Positions 51,828-62,379 of a DNA stretch of 64,000 bases are shown here, piece by piece. Where the stretch lies: positions 496,001-560,000 of the forward strand of contig MU385725.1 in NCBI GenBank assembly GCA_022497155.1, in the 5' to 3' direction. The notes beneath the pieces are model-generated. The model was given only the letters and a program-made list of their open reading frames with translations. It was not told where the DNA came from and did no database searches. Source of the stretch: Whalleya microplaca. Its lineage: Eukaryota > Ascomycota > Sordariomycetes > Xylariales > Xylariaceae. Each line of letters starts with the position of its first letter. The stretch's first letter is position 1. The position numbers were made by a program, and so were the translations under genes.

Positions 51828-54504
51828 TCATTCTGACCTCACACCATTGCCGGCGAAAATTCCATTACCTATGTTCCGGAAGACCTTAGCCCCACCTTCG
51901 AGTCGATGGATGCGGTCCACCAGGAACGCTCTCTGGCGCTTGGTTTCTGAGGGCTCGCCAGCAATGGACTCAACCTTGCTGTCAGGCATATTTACGACGA
52001 TTAAAGGTGAAAATATGCTGTCTAGGCCACGGATAATATGTCGCTCGATTACTTGCGTAGTTACGTTGGCAATGAAAACTTTCTTTTGCACCTATTCAAT
52101 GATTAGTTAGCGGTGAAATTGGTCAAGATCGGGCTATTCTAACCTTGTAGATAGCCATCAAGCAGTCTAATGCCTCCTCACAACTGAACTTTTCCATGTC
52201 GGGTGTCGTGGTGAAGTTGCTGGCGGCAGCAACAATTCTGTCAATACTCATGTCCACCTCCTTCTTGGCTTTTTCGAGTCGTCTGCGTTTTCCTGATGTG
52301 GGTTGCTTGATGCTGATGCTACTTGTCAACTTCTTTTGCAGCCGGGCTTTCATTCTCTCCTGGTTCCGTTTCTGGAGATTCTCGGTATAGTAATGATTGT
52401 AATTCATTGGGAGGTCCCTGTTGTCCTGGAGGAGCTTCGCCAACTCGCTGGATGCTGCCAAACGTCGCTTATTCAGAGCTTCTGCAACCATAGAAGCCCT
52501 AGTAATCACACAGTGTCAGAGTGGCTGACATGAAAGCTGGACTCAGAGGGGTTTTACTCACCAAATTCGAGACTTGACATCCGATGACACCTTCTGATCC
52601 AACAAATTGAGGAGGAACTTCTTACAGACCCGGTAGGCTTGATCGATATGGTCATTGGCTAGTTTCTCCCAGGGCTCGGATTGTTCCCAGAACAGATCAG
52701 CAATGAGATGGGGATTGAAGTTGCCAATGAGCTCCGTTCCTCGCGATCTAAGGAGCATCTTCTGAACCCAAACTATGGAATCCGTCTTCGAAAGAACTTG
52801 CGGCTCTAGCGTAGCAGATGGCACTAGCGTAGCATATGGTTCATCCCCAGATGGCTCATCCTCAGATGGCTCATCCACAGATGACTCATCCTTAGATGGC
52901 TCATCCTCAGATGGCTTATCCGCAGATGGCTCATCCCCAGAGTCATAAGACATAATATGATACTTATGGCCTGTTAGCCTAATTTTGGCCGCAAACTCCT
53001 GGTTGATATACTGCACAGCGGCGCGAAGGCGAGCGATGGTACTTTTGGATTTCAGTGAAAACGGCTCGCCTGCGCCTGCCTTGAAGTATTCGTGTTCGTA
53101 ATTCCCCTGCAGACCTGCCTTGCAGATTTCATAGCAGTCCATATTGATCCGAGCTAGGTACTCACGACACTCGAAGGCCGTCGATCGCGGGTCACCCAGC
53201 AGAGTTAGCTCTTCCTTGGAGGTTCTCAGAGCGGTCTTAAGATCCTTCCTAAGACGTGGTAACTCGTTCTTTACATGCTCCAAAAGGAGGTGGCTGAGTC
53301 GTACGCGCAGCGCATCGATACCGATAATTTCCTTAGGCAAGGCCTTAAAGTTCGAATCATTGAAATATGTCATCTCAGAAGAATTGCGTTCTTCAAAAGA
53401 GAAACCGCGCTCTTCGAACTTGCGATTCTTGATGACATGCCAGCCGAGCTTGAAAAAGACGTCCTCGTTCCTGGCAAGCTCAAGGAACTTAGCCTCCGAA
53501 TCGGAACCTGCATCGAGCCTGTCGGGCTTCGTGATAACACCAAGAGTTCGTTCTCCATCAGGGTCAAACATTCGGACCCTTTCAAGGATAGGCTGATTAG
53601 CCGCGTCGTTTGCGGCTGAGACAACCGCAAGGCAGATGGTCCGGGGTTGCGATATGTAATGGTCGGTGATCTCGGTAACCATTGCGACATCGGCAGCAGA
53701 GACACCCTTGGTAGAGGCCTGGATCAGGCCTGGGATATCAACCAAGGTAAGTTGGGGTCTGCTAGGGCCAGTGATCTCAATGCTGAGAGTATCCTTCGCG
53801 AAAGTGCTCCCTGGCGTCTGGTCAGAATTTGAAACGCCCATGACCTTCATGGCTGTGTCCATGATGACAGGTAAATCCCCGAAGTCAGTAATAGACTCTG
53901 AAAAGCGTTTGACCTTTTCCTGCTCCTCTGGGGTCCTAGCATTGTCTGGTATCACCTTGATGGTTAGACTTTGGACTGCCTCTCTCCGCAGACTGATCTC
54001 GGTTGCAAATCGGGTGCAGAGGTTATCGCCACGTGGAAATGGGATTTCTGTCAATGCTTCGAGGACGGAGCTCTTTCCCGCTGACTGGCTGCCACAAACA
54101 ACTATTTGAGGTAGTGAGAGGACACTTTCTAGGCCGCATTTTCGAACTTGTGTGATGACATCTAAAATGCGCCGCTGTTCGTCTGTCTGCAGCTCTTCAA
54201 GTGTTAAGCCGACGTTTCCTCCCGTGATTGGAGAAGAAGGAGGGTCTGGGCGTTCCCTCTCAGGAGAATTTTCTTCTGTTGAATTTTGAGTTCTGATAGA
54301 GAAAAATCCTCGGTGTGATTTGAGGCCTAGTCGCGAATTCCCTATTTTCACCCTGATCTGAGTAGTAATGGAGATACCTACCCCGCGATACACTCTATTA
54401 GTAAATGAAAGGAGCATTTCTAACACTCCTTGATGAAATGAACGCAGGGTGGGAGTAGTATAGTAGTTGTTATTACGGATATCGCTACTAAAAATCTTGT
54501 CCAT
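51828..54504 (-). CDS. dynamin/Mx-like large GTPase
   Basis: Self-assembling GTPase of the fungal Mx/dynamin-like group. Three exons on the minus strand, 54504-52562, 52498-52144 and 52091-51828, give 853 residues with GTGAGT...TACTAG and GTTAGA...AATAG introns. The GTPase domain has G1 GSQSAGKSS (about 138), the switch region CTRFATEIS, G3 DIPGL (256) and G4 TKPDRL (325). The stalk follows, interrupted by a Ser/Asp/Glu/Pro tandem repeat near residues 520-555. The last exon ends in a GED-like helix (FLVDRIHRLEGGAKVFRN). No PH domain is seen. The first 90 residues are not family-like, so the start at 54504 is uncertain; an ATG at 54414 is possible. Animal Mx proteins are antiviral; fungal members have mostly unknown roles. 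Confidence 0.9.
52836..52940. repeat. 15-bp intragenic tandem repeat in dynamin gene
   Basis: About seven units of AGATGGCTCATCCNC (plus strand) encode repeated SxDEP pentapeptides on the minus strand. Being a multiple of three, copy-number change would not break the frame, so the linker length can vary between strains. Confidence 0.88.
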
Positions 54505-56972
54505 AAGAGATTTTGCCTCAGCTGATACCAGCTGGACATGTCAGCTGGCGAGCTTTTGGCTCCCATTCGCATCTTACGGACTGTGGGAGTGGTCCGTGCC
54601 CTCTGCTTATAAGGAATCTGTTACCTACCTAGTTAAGCTGCTAAGTCACACTCCACCATCATTAATAATACATTGGAACTTTTGGCCACCATGATCCTTG
54701 CCCTCAACTCACTCCCAATCCACAACTATAGGACCTACATATATATATCCCACGAATCTCGTTAACAGTTTTATTAACGCGTTTGTTAGTGACGTTACTT
54801 ATATAATTTTATCTGCCTATTAACACAAATTATAGATAAATAGTTATACTTTTTTTTTTATATTTGAAACGTTAGCTATGAGCTGGCAGATCCGATATCA
54901 TCTAGCAGGGACAGCCGGTTGCAGATATTGTTCATCTAATTCATTTCACTATAGACAAAACTTCTTATCACTAGAGTCTAAAGAGAGAGAACCTCCTATA
55001 TACAAGCCACAGCTTGTGGGGCGTTCTCAGCCACCTGAATTATCACAGCCACACATGCCTGTAACCCGTCACTCATTGGTAACATTTATTTAAAGCTACC
55101 TAGGTATTCCGGTTGCTGAAATGCCTGCTCGGCAGCGGTGGCCGCGGCGGCTACTAGGTCAGCTTTTAGTCACGGCCAATGACAGCCGAGCAACGTGCCA
55201 AATAGTGAATGAATTAATGCCTTTATAAATCTCGCCTGCAGGAAGCAGTTCGAGAAGGTTAGGAGGGAGGCGTTGCATTGTGCTGCCCCTGAAAAATCCA
55301 ATCTATATCCGAAAATCAATCGTTGCTAAAAGTGGATAGAAAAGAGAAAAACCCGCGCTTGAGTTCTATTGCAGATTCAAAGGAATTGGAGCTTCTTCAG
55401 TGTTACTGTTAGTTACTGTTTAAAAAGGGTCATAAAGCTATACAAGAATTAGAAATGGTACATTCATTCACTAAGAGAAATGTACTGCGGAGTAGGTATT
55501 TCCACTAATATGCAGATTAGAGTGAAAATAGCCGGAAATAGAGTGACCATAGGCAAACCGCCTAATAGGGACTTGAGTGTATAGTCTTTGAGGATGGAAG
55601 CATGGATGGCAAAGATTGAGCACATGACGATTCACTTCCGGTGTTGTTCTAGTGGCCTCTTTATGTTCAGCTTGGTTCTTAGACCCTTCGTAATCTAAGA
55701 AGGGGAGCTTCTAGAGACTTCGTTCGGACGACGATAATATTTGATGTTCTGCCCGGGTAGATGCGATGGAAAGCCTAGGCTGAACATGCGTACACCCGAA
55801 GCTGAGCCAAGCCTCGACTGCAAACGCCGTAGAAACTTTTCTTTTTTTTTTTCTTTTTCTTTTGCACGACATTAAACATCAAGAGGACGACTTTATATTC
55901 GCGAGACTACTAGAGTTGGGTTTCTTCGCACATTATACCCCTAATGGTGTGTAAAGGTAGAATGCGCGTGAAATATCTCACCGAATAACATCCCAATGCT
56001 GTCTTTGCGTACCAAGCCCCGAGTAGCATTTTTGTAGCATATCCGGTTTGGCTATCTCTTGGCCGTTAGTCAACCCAAGACTCCAGCCAGCAAACAAAAC
56101 AACAAATAGATAAATGAATGCAAAGTGGCTTTCCCAATGCCACTCTAAGGCTTGTCTTGCGATCTCCTGTTTTCTGCTAACGTGTTTCAACGGACGAATC
56201 ACATTCGAGATGTTAATTTTGCTGCCATGATAGTACCTGCGGCTTCTGGTGGATGCAACGGAAGCCTTGCGGTATCTTCTGCAAGCTTCCCGTTTACCCT
56301 GCTCAAACAGAAATCGGCCACTTAGTACCAGGGGCTATTTCTACGCCGTTTGTAGGTACCAGCCTGAGCAACCTCCGGGAATTCCTTCGTGGCGCAAAGC
56401 CGTGTCCGTCACGAACAAAGCAGTATTATAGCACAAGCCACTCGATCAAGAAGTGGCTGTTGGTGGACCTCATTGCCGAGCAAACACATGGTTGCGATAA
56501 TGTGAGGCATTTCAGAGTGTGGATGTTGTATTCCAAGTGTGATGTGAATCGATAAAGGTCACGTGAAGTCAAAGGATTATGAAAAACTCTGGAATGGCTA
56601 GGTACCTATGTAGCTACCAAGCCACATGTAGATGTGGCTGTGCTACTAAATGTATTATTAAACCATAAAAATGTTGTCATTAACAATTTCAGAAATGGTA
56701 TATGACCTACATTTTTAGGTTCTGAACAATAACATACAATCACCATACATATATATTATATTTCGCCATTTATAATCAAGAACAAAATGTTCAGAATTAC
56801 CTCGCTCTGGTGCAGGTAACTCTCAATGAATTATTGAGGCTGCTTTGTCCGTCTTCTCCCCACTAATGATCTTATTTTTGCTTCTCGCTCCAGTCTGAGC
56901 CCCTGTTAGCTCTGGCACTGAGCTTGAGCAGTGAGCCATTCTCTCGCAGGGCGCGATAGCAGTCGGCAAAAG
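54505..56972. other. gene-poor stretch upstream of the fused nuclease
   Basis: Carries a family 2 repeat at about 54925-55045. A minus-strand ORF at 55978-56202 with one hydrophobic segment and plus-strand ORFs at 56249-56555 have no recognisable domain. Confidence 0.4.
54925..55045 (+). repeat. dispersed repeat family 2, copy II
   Basis: Contains TTATCACTAGAGTCTAAAG, then AAGCCACAGCTTGTGGGGCG and CAGCCACCTGAATTA, in the same order and orientation as 23431-23548 and 60803-60905. Diverged; ends not clear. Confidence 0.55.
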
Positions 56973-59900
56973 ATGGGAGCTCAACACCGCTGGCTGCTGG
57001 CGAGCGACCTTCATTTCAGGCTTCACGACCTCGATCGCGTTATTCGCACGGCAGACTGGGTTGCCTCAATCCCACACCAATATAATATCTCCCGTGCCAT
57101 TATCTGCGGTGATCTTTTCACGGCACGCACTTCACAGCCGACGAATGTACTTTCAACATGCTACCGCTTCTTAGGCAAGCTAGCCAGCGCCGTACCACAT
57201 ATAGATATCATTTTGGGCAATCATGACTTAGCGTATCGTCATGACTACACCACTTCGGCTTTGGAAGCGCTGGCTATCACTCGGTTAGCCCCATTTGTTA
57301 CGCTCCACACGGAGATCGCATGCCACAAGTGGGATGGGAGGCGTGTACTTGTGATGCCGTTCCGGGAGGACCAAGGTGAAATTATCAGATCGATACGCGA
57401 CTTAGATCCAAAGATTGCGGCAGAGACGGTGGGATTTGGTCATCTGGCAATAAACCGGGCCATAACGCAGAAGTATGCCATCAACTCCGAGACGGGAAAG
57501 CCCGGGTTGCCTACAAGATACCCAGGCCTCACCAGTGCGGGTGAATTTGCACCGCTGGCAAGAACATTTACCGGGCACTTTCACAGTTATCAAACAATCT
57601 TCCAAGCTTCGAATAAAGAACCTCAAGATCCTCAAGGAAGCGTAACGTACATTGGGGCACCATTACAGCTTACCTGGGCAGATCTGTTCGATACTAGGAA
57701 GGGGGTCATCTTACTTGACCCGCAAACCCTAGAGGTTGAGCTTGTTGATAATCCACATGCCGTGGGCTACACGTCGGTCGAAGCACAAGACGTGCTAGCG
57801 GACCGGGTGGACGTCGAACAAGTTCAGGATAAGCATGTCATGGTCACGGGGAAGTTATCAATGTATAAATACATCTCTGCCAGGGATCGTCTTGTCCAAC
57901 TAGGAGCGCGTAGTGTGAGGGACTGGAAATATGTTGCATCGCAATGGCACTTCGGCCAAAGGGGTCTCGGCAAGACTGCGCTCCCTGCTGATATTCAAAA
58001 TCGACCAGATCAAGAAAAGGGGGAAGTCTCAGATGAGACAAGAAAGACCCGGGCTGACCTCGATGGGCCCCTAACTGCTGTTTCAAAAGAATTGACGACT
58101 GGTCAGATGGAGCGTGAGCCACTTGACCTGGCTGGACTTGTCCAGGAATATGTGTCCTCTTTAGACCTTGAATCTACTCTTGAGGATAGGCGCGATATTC
58201 TATCTCTCGTGGGAAAGAGACTCTTTAGTATCCGCGGCTGCATCGGCGACAAGGCCGGGTGCAACGTGAAATACAGAGATCTGCTCGACACGTCACCTCA
58301 ATCTTCTCTTTTTATCCCCGCAAACGATGCTCTACGGGCATCCACGGCGGAAACCATCTTTGCTGCGGACCCCATTTCGATCGAAATTACGAACTTTCTT
58401 GGTGTCCAGGGTACTCTGAGTCTAGATTTCAAGGTTCACTTCCAGCCCGGTATAAACTTGATAGTGGGACACAATGGGGCAGGGAAGAGTACACTTATTG
58501 AGGCAATCGTATGGTGTCAATTTGGACAGTGTATTCGAGAGGGACTTGGGGTAAACGACGTCGTTAATGATGTTTCTGGCAAAGACTGCAACGTCCGTCT
58601 AACATTTGCAAACGGATACACCATTTCGAGATACCGGAAGCACAACGAGTTTCGCAACCGTGTGATTGTGGAGAAAAACGGCGCAATACAGTCACAATTT
58701 GAAGGACATGATGCTAGAAGTACCCAGGCATCAATTAATGGTCTGCTAGGTGTAGACTTTGACACATTTATCAGAATGATCTTACTCGGGAACGAGAGTG
58801 CTCCAAGCTTCTTGAGTTCTACATCATTGCAGAAGAGGCAGTTAATCGAGTTAGTTTTAGGCCTAGAGGTCTTAGATGGATGCGCAGAGACTTGCAACTC
58901 GATGCTGGGTCAAGTGGAGGAGGAACTGGGAGGTATGCAGTCGCGACTTGAAGGAGTCACGCACACAGTGGAGCATCTAAACAGTCGAGTCAAGCAGTTA
59001 GACCAGACGTTGAGGCGCCTACGACATGAAGCAGAATCTCTTGCTAATGAGATGGAAGACAAGAAAAAGAAATACCCCGTGATTCTGAGCGAGAAAGAGT
59101 TTCACAGAAATAAGCTCCAAGAGGATCTCAAAGCTGAGCAGCTTTTGCCAGATTTGAAGCCCGAGCTTCTGGGCCTTCAAGGTAATATTTCTCATGTGCA
59201 AAATGAGGTGGACAGACTTGGCGTGTTGGCCAGGCTAGCTCAAGCCCGCTCATTTATAGACCGTGAGCGAGTCATCATTGAGCAAGAGATATTGGCTACC
59301 AAGGCACAGCTTCATCGTCTTGAGGAGGATCTCCAGCATCTTTTTGAAGAGAACAGCGCACTGGAAATCCCATCTTCAATTATCGAAGAAGACGAAGACA
59401 GCACAGAGAGTACTAGTCGGACGCAAGGCATCCTACTATACATCACACTTGCCTTTCGGAAAATTTGGACTATGATTCTTAACGTCGTTAGCCCGGAAGC
59501 AATAGCGAGAGCCAGAAGTCTGGAAGAGAGCGCCCTTAGGGCCATGGAAACTAAACGACGGTGGAATGAGCACATGAGGGCTGTCGTCACTCTCGCTAAT
59601 AGAGTTACTCACACACAAGGCAGAGTAGCGAGTCTGATAGACAGTCTAGCAAGCCTTCCCCGCAATGTTGCCCACCAGACTCGCATTAGCGAGAGTGATG
59701 TTCACCTTTCTTTACGGACATTAACAGTACAGGAAGCATTGAAAGTTCCTAGCCGGGTTACTGTAGCCCTCGATGAGCTAAGGACTCTGACTAACCGACA
59801 TGCTCATCTGCAACTTGAATATGAGAGGCGGGAGCAGAAACGGCTTCATAAACAACGAGATGTCGATGAACAAGATAAAGAAATCGAGATGGTAAGAAAG

Positions 59901-60701
59901 GAGTGGGAAGGTTCCTTGGGCCGGCATCGTCGTTTACTTGCTAGCAAAGAGCAGGAAATTACCATTTACAAAGGGCTCCTCAAATCGGAAGCCGAATCTC
60001 TCATCAAACTTAGTCACCAGATTGTCGATCTTGAAAAAGAAGTTGCAGGCATAAACTCTCATCGTGAAATATTTGCCTTCTGGCAGTCTGCTCTCACACG
60101 CCGTCAGGTAGCAGCACCGAGAGTTACGTTCCGCCGGCATGTCATCGGGCGTCATCTGGGGGAGCTGAACAAACTACTTGTACAGATCCTGATGGTCATG
60201 TACCGAGATGAACATTATGCGCGGAGCATGAGAACAAGCACTCTTAAGGCTCTATTTGAGGAAGATGGCGATGTCGACGACGACCATGACGACGATAAAG
60301 GAAATACTGCAGTGCTCGAACCTTCCCTGTCGATTGCCTCTACCCTTGGCTATTCTAAGAGAAGCGGCGGCGAGCGTAAACGCGTGGATCTTGCGCTCTT
60401 CTTCGCGCTATTCATGATGAGCGAGGCCAGAAGTGCGCACAGAGCTAGGTACATGCTCGTCGACGAGGTCTTCGACGGCCTGGATACGGTTGGTCAAGCT
60501 GCTGTTCTAAAGATATGCCACTGGATGACAGAGCACTTGGCATATGTATTCGTAATCACCCACAGCCAAAGCTTGATCACTCTTGCTGAGAATGAAAACG
60601 GTGGCGATGGTGGCGTTGGTACGAGTATCATCACCGCGAAAGCGGGTGATAAAGGCACCGAGTTCGAGGTCAATGGGGTTCGCATCAGTAGTTCCTCTTA
60701 A
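56973..60701 (+). CDS. fused SbcD/Mre11 nuclease - SbcC/Rad50 ATPase, single polypeptide
   Basis: An intronless gene of 1242 residues. Residues 1-330 are an Mre11/SbcD-type phosphoesterase with every metal motif: SDLHF (11), GDLF (46), LGNHDL (81), GFGHLAI (154) and TGHFHSY (200). A linker containing a helical pair (LAGLVQEYVSSLDLES, likely the ATPase-binding helices) leads to a Rad50/SbcC SMC ATPase: ITNFLGVQGTLSLDF, Walker A VGHNGAGKSTLIEAI (about 498), ILLGNESAPSFLSSTS, coiled coil about 630-795 and 845-1045, then signature KRSGGERKRVDLAL (1129), Walker B YMLVDEVFDGLD (1160) and VITHSQSL. No CxxC zinc hook exists; the apex has an acidic stretch and hydrophobic ILLYITLAFRKIWTMILNVV. MR complexes process DNA ends and hairpins; the activity here is inferred. 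Start is the ATG at 56973, as the longer frame opens with GTG. Confidence 0.93.
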   Translation: MGAQHRWLLASDLHFRLHDLDRVIRTADWVASIPHQYNISRAIICGDLFTARTSQPTNVLSTCYRFLGKLASAVPHIDIILGNHDLAYRHDYTTSALEALAITRLAPFVTLHTEIACHKWDGRRVLVMPFREDQGEIIRSIRDLDPKIAAETVGFGHLAINRAITQKYAINSETGKPGLPTRYPGLTSAGEFAPLARTFTGHFHSYQTIFQASNKEPQDPQGSVTYIGAPLQLTWADLFDTRKGVILLDPQTLEVELVDNPHAVGYTSVEAQDVLADRVDVEQVQDKHVMVTGKLSMYKYISARDRLVQLGARSVRDWKYVASQWHFGQRGLGKTALPADIQNRPDQEKGEVSDETRKTRADLDGPLTAVSKELTTGQMEREPLDLAGLVQEYVSSLDLESTLEDRRDILSLVGKRLFSIRGCIGDKAGCNVKYRDLLDTSPQSSLFIPANDALRASTAETIFAADPISIEITNFLGVQGTLSLDFKVHFQPGINLIVGHNGAGKSTLIEAIVWCQFGQCIREGLGVNDVVNDVSGKDCNVRLTFANGYTISRYRKHNEFRNRVIVEKNGAIQSQFEGHDARSTQASINGLLGVDFDTFIRMILLGNESAPSFLSSTSLQKRQLIELVLGLEVLDGCAETCNSMLGQVEEELGGMQSRLEGVTHTVEHLNSRVKQLDQTLRRLRHEAESLANEMEDKKKKYPVILSEKEFHRNKLQEDLKAEQLLPDLKPELLGLQGNISHVQNEVDRLGVLARLAQARSFIDRERVIIEQEILATKAQLHRLEEDLQHLFEENSALEIPSSIIEEDEDSTESTSRTQGILLYITLAFRKIWTMILNVVSPEAIARARSLEESALRAMETKRRWNEHMRAVVTLANRVTHTQGRVASLIDSLASLPRNVAHQTRISESDVHLSLRTLTVQEALKVPSRVTVALDELRTLTNRHAHLQLEYERREQKRLHKQRDVDEQDKEIEMVRKEWEGSLGRHRRLLASKEQEITIYKGLLKSEAESLIKLSHQIVDLEKEVAGINSHREIFAFWQSALTRRQVAAPRVTFRRHVIGRHLGELNKLLVQILMVMYRDEHYARSMRTSTLKALFEEDGDVDDDHDDDKGNTAVLEPSLSIASTLGYSKRSGGERKRVDLALFFALFMMSEARSAHRARYMLVDEVFDGLDTVGQAAVLKICHWMTEHLAYVFVITHSQSLITLAENENGGDGGVGTSIITAKAGDKGTEFEVNGVRISSSS

Positions 60702-62379
60702 GAGAGAATAGCTCGGAGCCCTCATATTTGGGTAACGTGATCCTTGTTGCAACTATAAATCAGTGATGGATTTTGTTGGACTTGACGCAGGTTACGAGTA
60801 TCATAGTAGTTGTTATTAGGGAAGCATCATCATTAGAGCTCTCGAGGGCAGAGCCCCCTACTATATAGAACCACAGATTGTGGGGTGTTCCAGCAACCTG
60901 ATTACCGGGCTTAGAAATGTAAGATCCTTAAATCCCCTCTTCGGAATGTTATTTATATTGCATTATAAACCCAAATCTTAAGAGACATCATACTGCCAAC
61001 CCATTCTATCAAGCCACTAGTGTACATAACTACAGGATTTAGCACCTCCTTGATAGGTAAGATGTGAAATATCGAGTATGTTCCTCTTCGTCATTGTCTG
61101 CGTATGTAAAGCGATGGTCAGAGGGGGGAAACCCCTCAAATCCCCTGAACACAAACCATTATACACCAAAACTTGCCAACACGGCAACTGACAGGCACAC
61201 ATTACATCTGGTTGCTTCATAAAACATACAGATCTATTGTTCCGTCATATTTCTAGGCGAGCAACCGAATTAGTAAACATCCAAAGTTAAGATGGGCTCA
61301 TGTTCAACGGTTTCTCGTCGGACACGGCTGATAGATATTCCCAGAAGGCTACAAAAGAGAACTGGTCAATCAGCCAGCCCAGCGTAGTAGAAGATATCTG
61401 TGGTCTTCATCACATGACTTCATAGGCTTGATATGACAATAATAATATTATGAATTGTTATGATTTACCCGTGCGGTTGTTCTCCGCATCATATAATCAC
61501 AACATTCAGCCCATTTCCGCATTTCGCCTCATCGGCCGCAATGACATAAATGTGGCAGTGCATTTGTACAAGCAGTGTATGTGATATTGTTGTTATTGCC
61601 CTTTAGGGCTTACCTAGTAGTTGAGATCACCATAATCTTTTATTGTGTTATGTACCCAACAGCTTGGATTCTGAGGCCCTCCTAAAAGTTTAACTCGGTT
61701 CTATCAGAGCCATAGGTACGATTCCAGTGGAGAAGCAACGCTTCCAGCCGATGAGTTGTCACTTTCACCCCCCTCCTAGTTCGTTCACTATTAATTACCC
61801 ACTTACGAACTTCGGATAGTTCTGCGTGGAAGCGGTCAAATAATATTGTTGCTGCGCCACCTGAACAAGCCCGCTCCGATAACAAGTCTAAAAATACAAA
61901 TGTCAGGATCTACAGCGGCCGCCGAATCGGATATAATCGGAGAGACATAATTATAGAACGAGATAGAGTTGTTACAATGCCTTGTTTAGCGCATTAGGTA
62001 TCAATTATCATTGTCCCTGTACTACGGATTTAGAACCAATCACCATATACTCGCGTTATAACATCAATTAGATGTCCAGGTGTTACTCATAACACCAGTC
62101 GACGCTTTCGCATATGTCGGTGTCCATGCTTGCGAACTTCCATGTGAACCAAATCCATGAAACAATGCTCACCTGACTCTTCATGAGTACTAAAATGGGC
62201 CATACCTAGGTCACTAGTAGAGGAACACAGACTTTATTAAGTCGGAATATTTATAGCAGGATTAAATGAAATATAGTAAATAAAGTGATGAAACATAACA
62301 ATGCAGTGATATGCCATAATGCAATTCCTCACCGGGCCCCCAAGATGTAGGTCTCAGGTTGAACCAATTACTATCATAC
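60702..62379. other. intergenic, 1.7 kb
   Basis: Holds family 2 repeat copy III. A minus-strand ORF at 61682-61885 (DRFHAELSEVRKWVINSERT) has gene-like composition but no family I can name and no linked exon. The rest is AT-rich. Confidence 0.4.
60803..60905 (+). repeat. dispersed repeat family 2, copy III
   Basis: TAGTAGTTGTTATTAGGGAAG, GAGGGCAGAGCCCCCTA and ACCACAGATTGTGGGGTGTT followed by CAACCTGATTACC match copies I and II block by block. It starts about 100 bp after the stop codon of the fused nuclease gene. Confidence 0.55.

Follow-up and report, generated by a model that had tools for sequence, protein, structure and literature searches.

A hook-less Mre11–Rad50 fusion protein of Sordariomycetes with probable phage-type affinity

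The fusion gene and its product

The DNA analysed here, a 64,000-nucleotide stretch of the Whalleya microplaca genome (contig MU385725.1, positions 496,001 to 560,000; hereafter the window), contains at 56973–60701 on the forward strand a single intronless frame of 1242 codons that encodes a fusion of Mre11/SbcD and Rad50/SbcC. The frame opens with an ATG at 56973 and its stop codon ends at 60701; the nearest in-frame stop upstream lies at 56925, and no further ATG falls between the two. At the composition of the window, a frame of 1242 codons would arise by chance with a probability of about 10^-28, and, independently of this estimate, the homologues described below establish the frame as real. 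The features of the gene are as follows, with conservation given as the fraction of the majority residue and model confidence as the predicted local distance difference test (pLDDT).

56973–60701, forward strand: Mre11/SbcD–Rad50/SbcC fusion protein, 1242 amino acids, recognized by its open frame, its motifs and more than 100 relatives of 1109–1547 amino acids
56985–57926, forward strand: Mre11/SbcD phosphoesterase and capping domain, residues 5–318, with ligands D12, H14, D47, N83, H84, H157, H202 and H204
57927–58127, forward strand: poorly conserved linker, about residues 319–385 (pLDDT mostly <50; mean majority-residue fraction 0.39)
58128–58244, forward strand: conserved helices, residues 386–424 (helices 386–396, 401–404 and 407–424; majority fraction 0.57)
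58368–58892, forward strand: Rad50/SbcC ATPase N-lobe, residues 466–640, with Walker A at 499–506
58893–60092, forward strand: antiparallel coiled coil without CxxC, about residues 641–1040 (predicted helices 632–722, 729–794, 841–893 and 919–1041)
59421–59489, forward strand: hydrophobic helix capping the tip of the coiled coil, about residues 817–839 (helix 817–836; block pLDDT 36–56; hydrophobicity peak)
60093–60698, forward strand: Rad50/SbcC ATPase C-lobe, residues 1041–1242, with signature, Walker B, D-loop and switch H1197 (the structural model ends at residue 1200)

A sequence-only reading of this DNA had claimed that all five phosphoesterase metal motifs and the SMC ATPase motifs lie in one intact frame, and each was located in the translation. 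For the ATPase, we take GHNGAGKS (499–506) to be Walker A, SGGE (1131) the signature, MLVDE (D1164/E1165) Walker B, GLD (1169) the D-loop and H1197 the switch histidine. Of 120 listed family members, the window protein included, 119 or 120 retain each metal ligand and ATPase residue that was tested, the exceptions being serine for G1132 (22 members), threonine for S506 (5) and serine for G201 (1). Pfam detected Metallophos at residues 8–92 (E 2.9e-4, just over the cut-off), AAA_23 at 469–720 and SMC_N at 486–1207; a match to SbcC_Walker_B at 1127–1182 falls under the cut-off. Among the phage families of PHROGs, SbcC matched residues 469–1201 (2.4e-61) and SbcD residues 7–294 (9e-23).

The predicted model recovered the folds of both halves. 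Residues 4–320 align with the nuclease and capping domain of 7dog_A, so that the capping domain is kept, and the Rad50-type ATPase lobes are joined by a long coiled coil. Between the halves, the majority fraction of 0.57 at residues 386–424 compares with 0.39 and 0.41 in the flanking linkers, and these helices are, by position and conservation only, a candidate for the helix-loop-helix by which Mre11 grips Rad50.

Distribution among fungi

A search of 5.8 billion proteins (E ≤ 1e-3) returned 228 relatives with the window protein as query and 243 with a 17-sequence profile, and the best 120 of each were listed. The sequence-only reading had implied a one-off protein; instead, relatives fill both listings. 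Among these listed matches, more than 100 fusion relatives are fungal, and the named ones come nearly all from Sordariomycetes. Relatives were found in Xylariales (Biscogniauxia, at 77% identity, Annulohypoxylon, Daldinia, Monosporascus and Xylaria), Hypocreales (Trichoderma, Fusarium and Clonostachys), Sordariales (Chaetomium and Podospora) and Diaporthales (Cytospora and Discula), as well as in Apiospora and Gaeumannomyces. Class and order names are those that we presume to apply, save for Chaetomium strumarium, Biscogniauxia marginata and Fusarium solani. The relatives carry source labels such as "P-loop containing nucleoside triphosphate hydrolase protein", "Rad50/SbcC-type AAA domain-containing protein" and "nuclease SbcCD subunit C". 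A 600-residue query, whose length window shuts out long fusions, gave 14 matches, of which 8 are shorter proteins 60–87% identical to family members over their best stretch (E ≤ 1e-37); the matches that follow, across a gap, are SbcC proteins of phage size and proteins of bacterial type (E 7e-12 to 5e-5). One listed relative, the 1547-residue Cladobotryum protein P0069, has an added cytochrome P450 domain, which is probably a gene-model join.

An intronless, phage-like gene in a eukaryote could be an artefact, whether two genes joined in assembly or annotation or contamination by bacterial or phage DNA. We consider this extremely improbable. The frame is unbroken and does not depend on a gene model, its host contig is 788,817 bases long, and the neighbouring genes carry the Pfam domains dynamin, Ytp1, ferric reductase and WSC. 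Relatives of the same length are found in many separately sequenced fungi, in some cases on multi-megabase contigs. The earlier claim of a single polypeptide, in SbcD-then-SbcC order, in a fungal chromosome is borne out by this contig and its neighbours.

The host's own Mre11 and Rad50

When the host genome (48.1 Mb, 114 contigs) was searched, the fusion was matched once, by itself. A separate, intact Rad50 gene of a single exon (1306 amino acids, with a CELC motif) was found on contig C11 and matches Chaetomium thermophilum Rad50 (7zr1_C, residues 1–1305, E 0). A separate Mre11 gene lies on contig C5, with C. thermophilum Mre11 (4yke_A, E 3e-198) as the match of its main exon. The fusion gene is therefore additional to a normal pair, as had been supposed from the window sequence. 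The canonical eukaryotic Mre11–Rad50–Nbs1 system belongs to the same enzyme class, but it is encoded separately in the host genome, has the CELC hook and is not the closest relative of the fusion.

Absence of the zinc hook

The arms of Rad50 usually join at a CxxC motif through which they share a zinc ion. CxxC is absent from the whole of the window protein and from the coil of all 135 fungal members, whereas all 38 comparators have one (26 phage, 8 bacterial, 1 phage-like plasmid and 1 archaeal protein, the host's own Rad50 and the Deferribacter fusion), as do all four fused phage proteins. For the fungal proteins the motif search covered the aligned coil, and for the comparators the whole protein minus 150 residues at each end; a caution in reading these counts is that the 135 fungal members are related. 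Coil cysteines are lacking altogether in 32/135, and some C-x(1-5)-C spacing occurs in 6/135.

In place of the hook, the coil tip carries a hydrophobic segment. In 125 of the 135 members its 18-residue hydrophobicity maximum is higher than those of the two coil arms, with a median Kyte-Doolittle value of 1.23 at the tip versus 0.62, and the membrane-like value of 1.6 is passed at the tip in only 16. A hydrophobic pairing element at the coil tip is a plausible natural substitute for the zinc hook. Several observations weigh on the other side. A looser cluster of cysteine and histidine in the coil of 10/135 members could in principle bind metal, and one alignment column holds cysteine in 40/135. 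The SbcC coils of E. coli, Azospirillum and Vibrio and the phage coil L029 also reach 1.2–1.4 somewhere along their length, and the tip helix of the fusion is modelled at low confidence (pLDDT 36–56).

Disruption of the zinc hook is described, in a passage of PMC9569753, as lethal under ionising radiation, and a passage of PMC6969161 describes an engineered MukB hinge that replaces the Rad50 hook in fission yeast. A brief literature search found no hook-less Rad50 elsewhere. The hook being held central to Rad50, a natural family that lacks it offers a ready test of what the coil tip requires.

Phylogenetic affinity

The window protein matched the phage SbcC model of PHROGs far better than the best cellular Rad50/SbcC model of NCBIfam (2.4e-61 versus 1e-19). 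Family profiles were then built from 17 fungal members. The SbcC N-lobe profile scored 27–112 bits in 79 of 80 uncultivated viral loci, the 79 being those with an N-lobe match, compared with 62 bits for T4 and 35 for E. coli. Other bacteria gave 24–48 bits, an archaeon 20.5, the Deferribacter fusion 16 and the host's own Rad50 14.5. Bacteria overlap the low end of the phage range, and the top scores are all phage. The SbcD profile followed a similar trend with overlap, at 9–57 bits in matched viral loci versus 8–22 in bacteria and the archaeon. Scores are best-domain bits for the 80 viral loci, E. coli, Deferribacter and the host's Rad50, whole-sequence bits for the jumbo-phage fusions (0.5–24 bits with the N-lobe profile), and of both kinds for the bacteria and archaeon. 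Among the proteins compared, those nearest by sequence in both halves are the phage gp46/gp47-type SbcCD pairs (phrog_77 and phrog_100), for example of the SPO1-like Exiguobacterium phage vB_EalM-132; unlike the fusion, these are two separate genes with a shorter coil and a zinc hook. E. coli SbcCD differs in having two chains and a zinc hook and is distant in sequence.

The trees draw on 12 fungal proteins out of the 135 and on 26 phage sources, of which 5 were chosen by name or from an earlier scan and 21 were hand-picked for spread from the 80 viral loci; the fusions from outside fungi that they cover are those of Deferribacter and the jumbo phages. L034, L045 and L046 are absent from the SbcD and joint trees; L042, L048, P0147 and P0149 lack SbcD; L016, L110 and L114–L116 were not placed; and the fused phage L124 was dropped, no P-loop pattern having been found in it. 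Constraint trees for the approximately unbiased (AU) tests were built in fast mode, on data sets of 43 taxa and of 46 taxa, the latter including jumbo-phage fusions; Shimodaira–Hasegawa (SH) values are given alongside.

The fungal family is monophyletic with an ultrafast bootstrap (UFB) of 100. Canonical cellular Mre11–Rad50 (MR) proteins are split from the phage, fungal and other fusion proteins with a UFB of 86 for SbcD, 96 for SbcC, 100 for both together and 94 with the jumbo-phage fusions added. A duplicated host MRE11 and RAD50 pair that later fused would belong to the same enzyme family and the same organism, but a sister relation of the fungal family to the host's own proteins was rejected (AU p 0.007 with 43 taxa and 0.0026 with 46; SH 0.023 and 0.036). 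The N-lobe score of the host's Rad50 lies below those of E. coli and the phage loci, and the Mre11_DNA_bind domain (PF04152) is found at the C5 Mre11 locus only, not in the fusion protein. This origin, which we regard as having almost no chance of being right, stands refuted unless both tests are misled by long-branch effects. The models and trees thus support a likely phage-type (gp46/gp47-like) affinity of the family, as opposed to a copy of host genes, and a clade of fungi with T4-like phages is compatible with the data (AU 0.34 and 0.49).

Other results sit less easily with this affinity. A clade of fungi with all canonical MR proteins was not rejected with 43 taxa (AU p 0.157) and only just rejected with 46 (0.046; SH 0.111). 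The closest phage group also varies: with SbcD alone it is the T4-like phages (UFB 73), with SbcC alone another group (65), and the joint trees place the fungi with the group that holds the SPO1-like phage (UFB 81 and 91), which bears on the identity of the donor group.

The gene might instead have reached the fungi as a ready-made fusion, whether a giant virus supplied it or another eukaryote with a fusion of the lineages described by Yoshida et al. The best structure matches in BFVD are long viral proteins, including those of Tupanvirus (1379 amino acids), Yasminevirus (1389), Harvfovirus (1343), Catovirus (1215) and Tetraselmis virus (1380), which were taken as fusions from their length. 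A clade of the fungi with the Deferribacter fusion is compatible (AU 0.083 with 43 taxa, 0.216 with 46), and the SH test rejects neither one clade of fungi and jumbo-phage fusions (PTm1, PAU and pT24; 0.198) nor the same clade with Deferribacter added (0.056). Against such an origin, the AU test weakly rejects the former clade (p 0.038) and rejects the latter (0.012), and the fungal N-lobe profile scores low on jumbo-phage fusions and higher on unfused phage SbcC. We consider inheritance of a ready-made fusion unlikely. A fusion independent of the sampled jumbo-phage fusions is weakly supported by these comparisons, and is favoured rather than proven, given that the AU rejections are not borne out by the SH test.

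Several further scans outside fungi led nowhere. No open reading frame (ORF) in the 80 viral loci matched both halves at E 0.01, a test that is blind to fusions as divergent as PTm1. By tblastn, 2976 phage records matched, none covering 80% of the fusion query in one place. Scans of viral contigs found nothing with the window protein or the Deferribacter fusion as query, and PTm1 itself only with PTm1. A scan of genome contigs gave one weak match, in Rossellomorea, and the 25 plasmid matches listed, of 911, cover only the N-lobe part. Vibrio phage EniLVp02, Pseudoalteromonas phage XG4 and Listeria phage LM 4-11-1, in which tblastn matches had appeared to extend over both halves, were rejected, each having two separate frames. 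The frames of the last (L115, OR846945.1, labelled as this Listeria phage) resemble bacterial-type SbcD (373 amino acids) and SbcC (1044 amino acids), and the record may be host DNA. In another viral locus (L015, 449–2545), a phage RecA-like protein of 698 amino acids has an apparent intein, as read by eye.

Relation to known fusions

The sequence-only reading had called the fungal protein undescribed. As a kind, such fusions have been known since 2011, when Yoshida, Claverie and Ogata reported, in the main text of PMC3175470, 13 Mre11/Rad50 fusions in viruses, bacteria and eukaryotes, carried by Mimivirus (R555), Bacillus phage 0305phi8-36, plasmids of C. kluyveri and Deferribacter, a moss, slime moulds, a diatom and Micromonas; the authors argued there for a viral origin and repeated fusion. 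The part of the claim that stood concerns fungi: that main text names no fungal carrier (a word search for "fung" gave 0 matches), and a search of the open-access literature found no publication on a fungal fusion family, so that the fungal branch of MR fusions may be undescribed in that literature. A Rhodotorula "Rad50/SbcC-type AAA" gene was considered as a precedent and rejected, since the relevant part of PMC12930229 lists it as rad50 or mre11 with no sign of a fusion.

Like the fungal proteins, the fusions of 2011 have an N-terminal Mre11 and a C-terminal Rad50 in one chain, fall outside the canonical clades and, as far as that main text describes, coexist with a normal MR pair in cellular hosts, except in Deferribacter. 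They differ in that the Deferribacter protein, the sole member whose sequence was compared, keeps its CxxC, and the AU tests lean towards a separate fungal fusion. The fusions carried by jumbo phages (PTm1, pT24, PAU and an uncultured 735-kb phage) share the domain order at 1202–1318 amino acids; in contrast to the fungal family they retain the hook and score low with the fungal profiles, and the three that were placed form a clade of their own (UFB 100). What is new is a fungal branch with a likely phage-type affinity, no zinc hook and a conflict between gene tree and taxonomy, and the loss of the hook and the apparent mobility deserve attention.

Relationships within the family

A midpoint-rooted family tree, with 40 named tips shown of 135, places Fusarium-labelled proteins in at least three positions. 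The F. solani copy shares 89.7% identity with the F. globosum copy, 87.0% with that of F. zealandicum and 85.7% with that of Chaetomium strumarium, a member of the Sordariales, and only 64.8–73.8% with the copies of five further species labelled as Fusarium (culmorum, coffeatum, irregulare, equiseti and lateritium). The node joining F. solani and F. globosum to two Sordariales has a support of 0.876, and Apiospora groups with Diaporthales (0.965), apart from the other Xylariales-type genera. The conflict between gene tree and taxonomy suggests horizontal transfer between fungi; old paralogues with loss also fit it, and single assemblies may be contaminated. A protein labelled Lasiodiplodia mahajangana (P0140), from a genus that we take by its name to belong to Dothideomycetes, is 81% identical to a Nemania protein, which reflects either transfer or a mislabelled genome.

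Proposed mode of action

Taking these lines of evidence together, we think it probable that the gene encodes an active single-chain MR nuclease from a phage-type source, fused independently, which has lost its hook and is additional to the host's Mre11 and Rad50. Nuclease activity and selection on the gene are inferred, as are the pairing of the arms at the tip and the movement between fungi. Two copies of the fusion would pair through their nuclease domains and, with ATP, through their ATPase heads, and ATP hydrolysis would then give DNA ends or hairpins access to the nuclease, in the manner of E. coli SbcCD. The contact of Mre11 with Rad50, normally made between chains, would form inside the chain through helices 386–424. 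The hydrophobic segment at the coil tip probably takes over arm pairing, or it may dock the arms elsewhere. A phage-type SbcCD pair would have been the gene source, fused apart from the sampled jumbo-phage fusions. Sordariomycetes would have retained the fused gene alongside their normal Mre11 and Rad50, and it has probably moved between fungal orders. The most likely cellular role, a guess, would be to process DNA ends that are unusual or foreign, as in hairpins and in replicating or invading DNA.

A bolder account, which we put forward tentatively as a doubtful but not negligible idea, is that a phage-type SbcCD pair entered an ancestral sordariomycete, or did so repeatedly, became fused, exchanged the near-universal hook for a hydrophobic tip by which the arms pair or dock, and now spreads between orders as an accessory gene, a domesticated phage nuclease directed at foreign or selfish DNA, in defence or conflict. 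A role in mitochondria, in the maintenance of organelle DNA as opposed to nuclear or invading DNA, would have a parallel in the phage-type DNA enzymes that occur in mitochondria. We judge it improbable: with the nuclease fold starting at residue 6 and an in-frame stop 48 bases upstream of the ATG, a targeting peptide could be accommodated only by an exon further upstream that went unseen, and M1 is at least 90% conserved in a 66-row alignment.

Going by sequence, a second double-strand-break nuclease, of phage type, seems to be present in many filamentous fungi, Trichoderma and Daldinia among them. A single chain also amounts to an MR enzyme of fixed stoichiometry, which is useful for structure work.

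Surroundings of the gene

An 18-nucleotide inverted repeat (56398–56415 and 61312–61329, 83% complementary) brackets the fusion gene. No further copies were found in the genome at ≤1 mismatch, no target-site duplication was seen around it, and a domain scan of 20 ORFs, out of the 63 frames of ≥120 amino acids in the window, detected no transposase-like domain. The fusion gene was accordingly rejected as a mobile element on the lack of a duplication and of such a domain in the scanned ORFs, and the inverted repeat could be due to chance. Directly 3' of the gene, a dispersed repeat of about 130 bases (60774–60906) recurs in at least 40 other genomic places at 75–85% identity and is probably a short interspersed nuclear element (SINE) or a repeat resembling a miniature inverted-repeat transposable element (MITE). 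The adjoining gene at 52561–54537 on the reverse strand encodes a dynamin-family GTPase (Dynamin_N, 9e-32).

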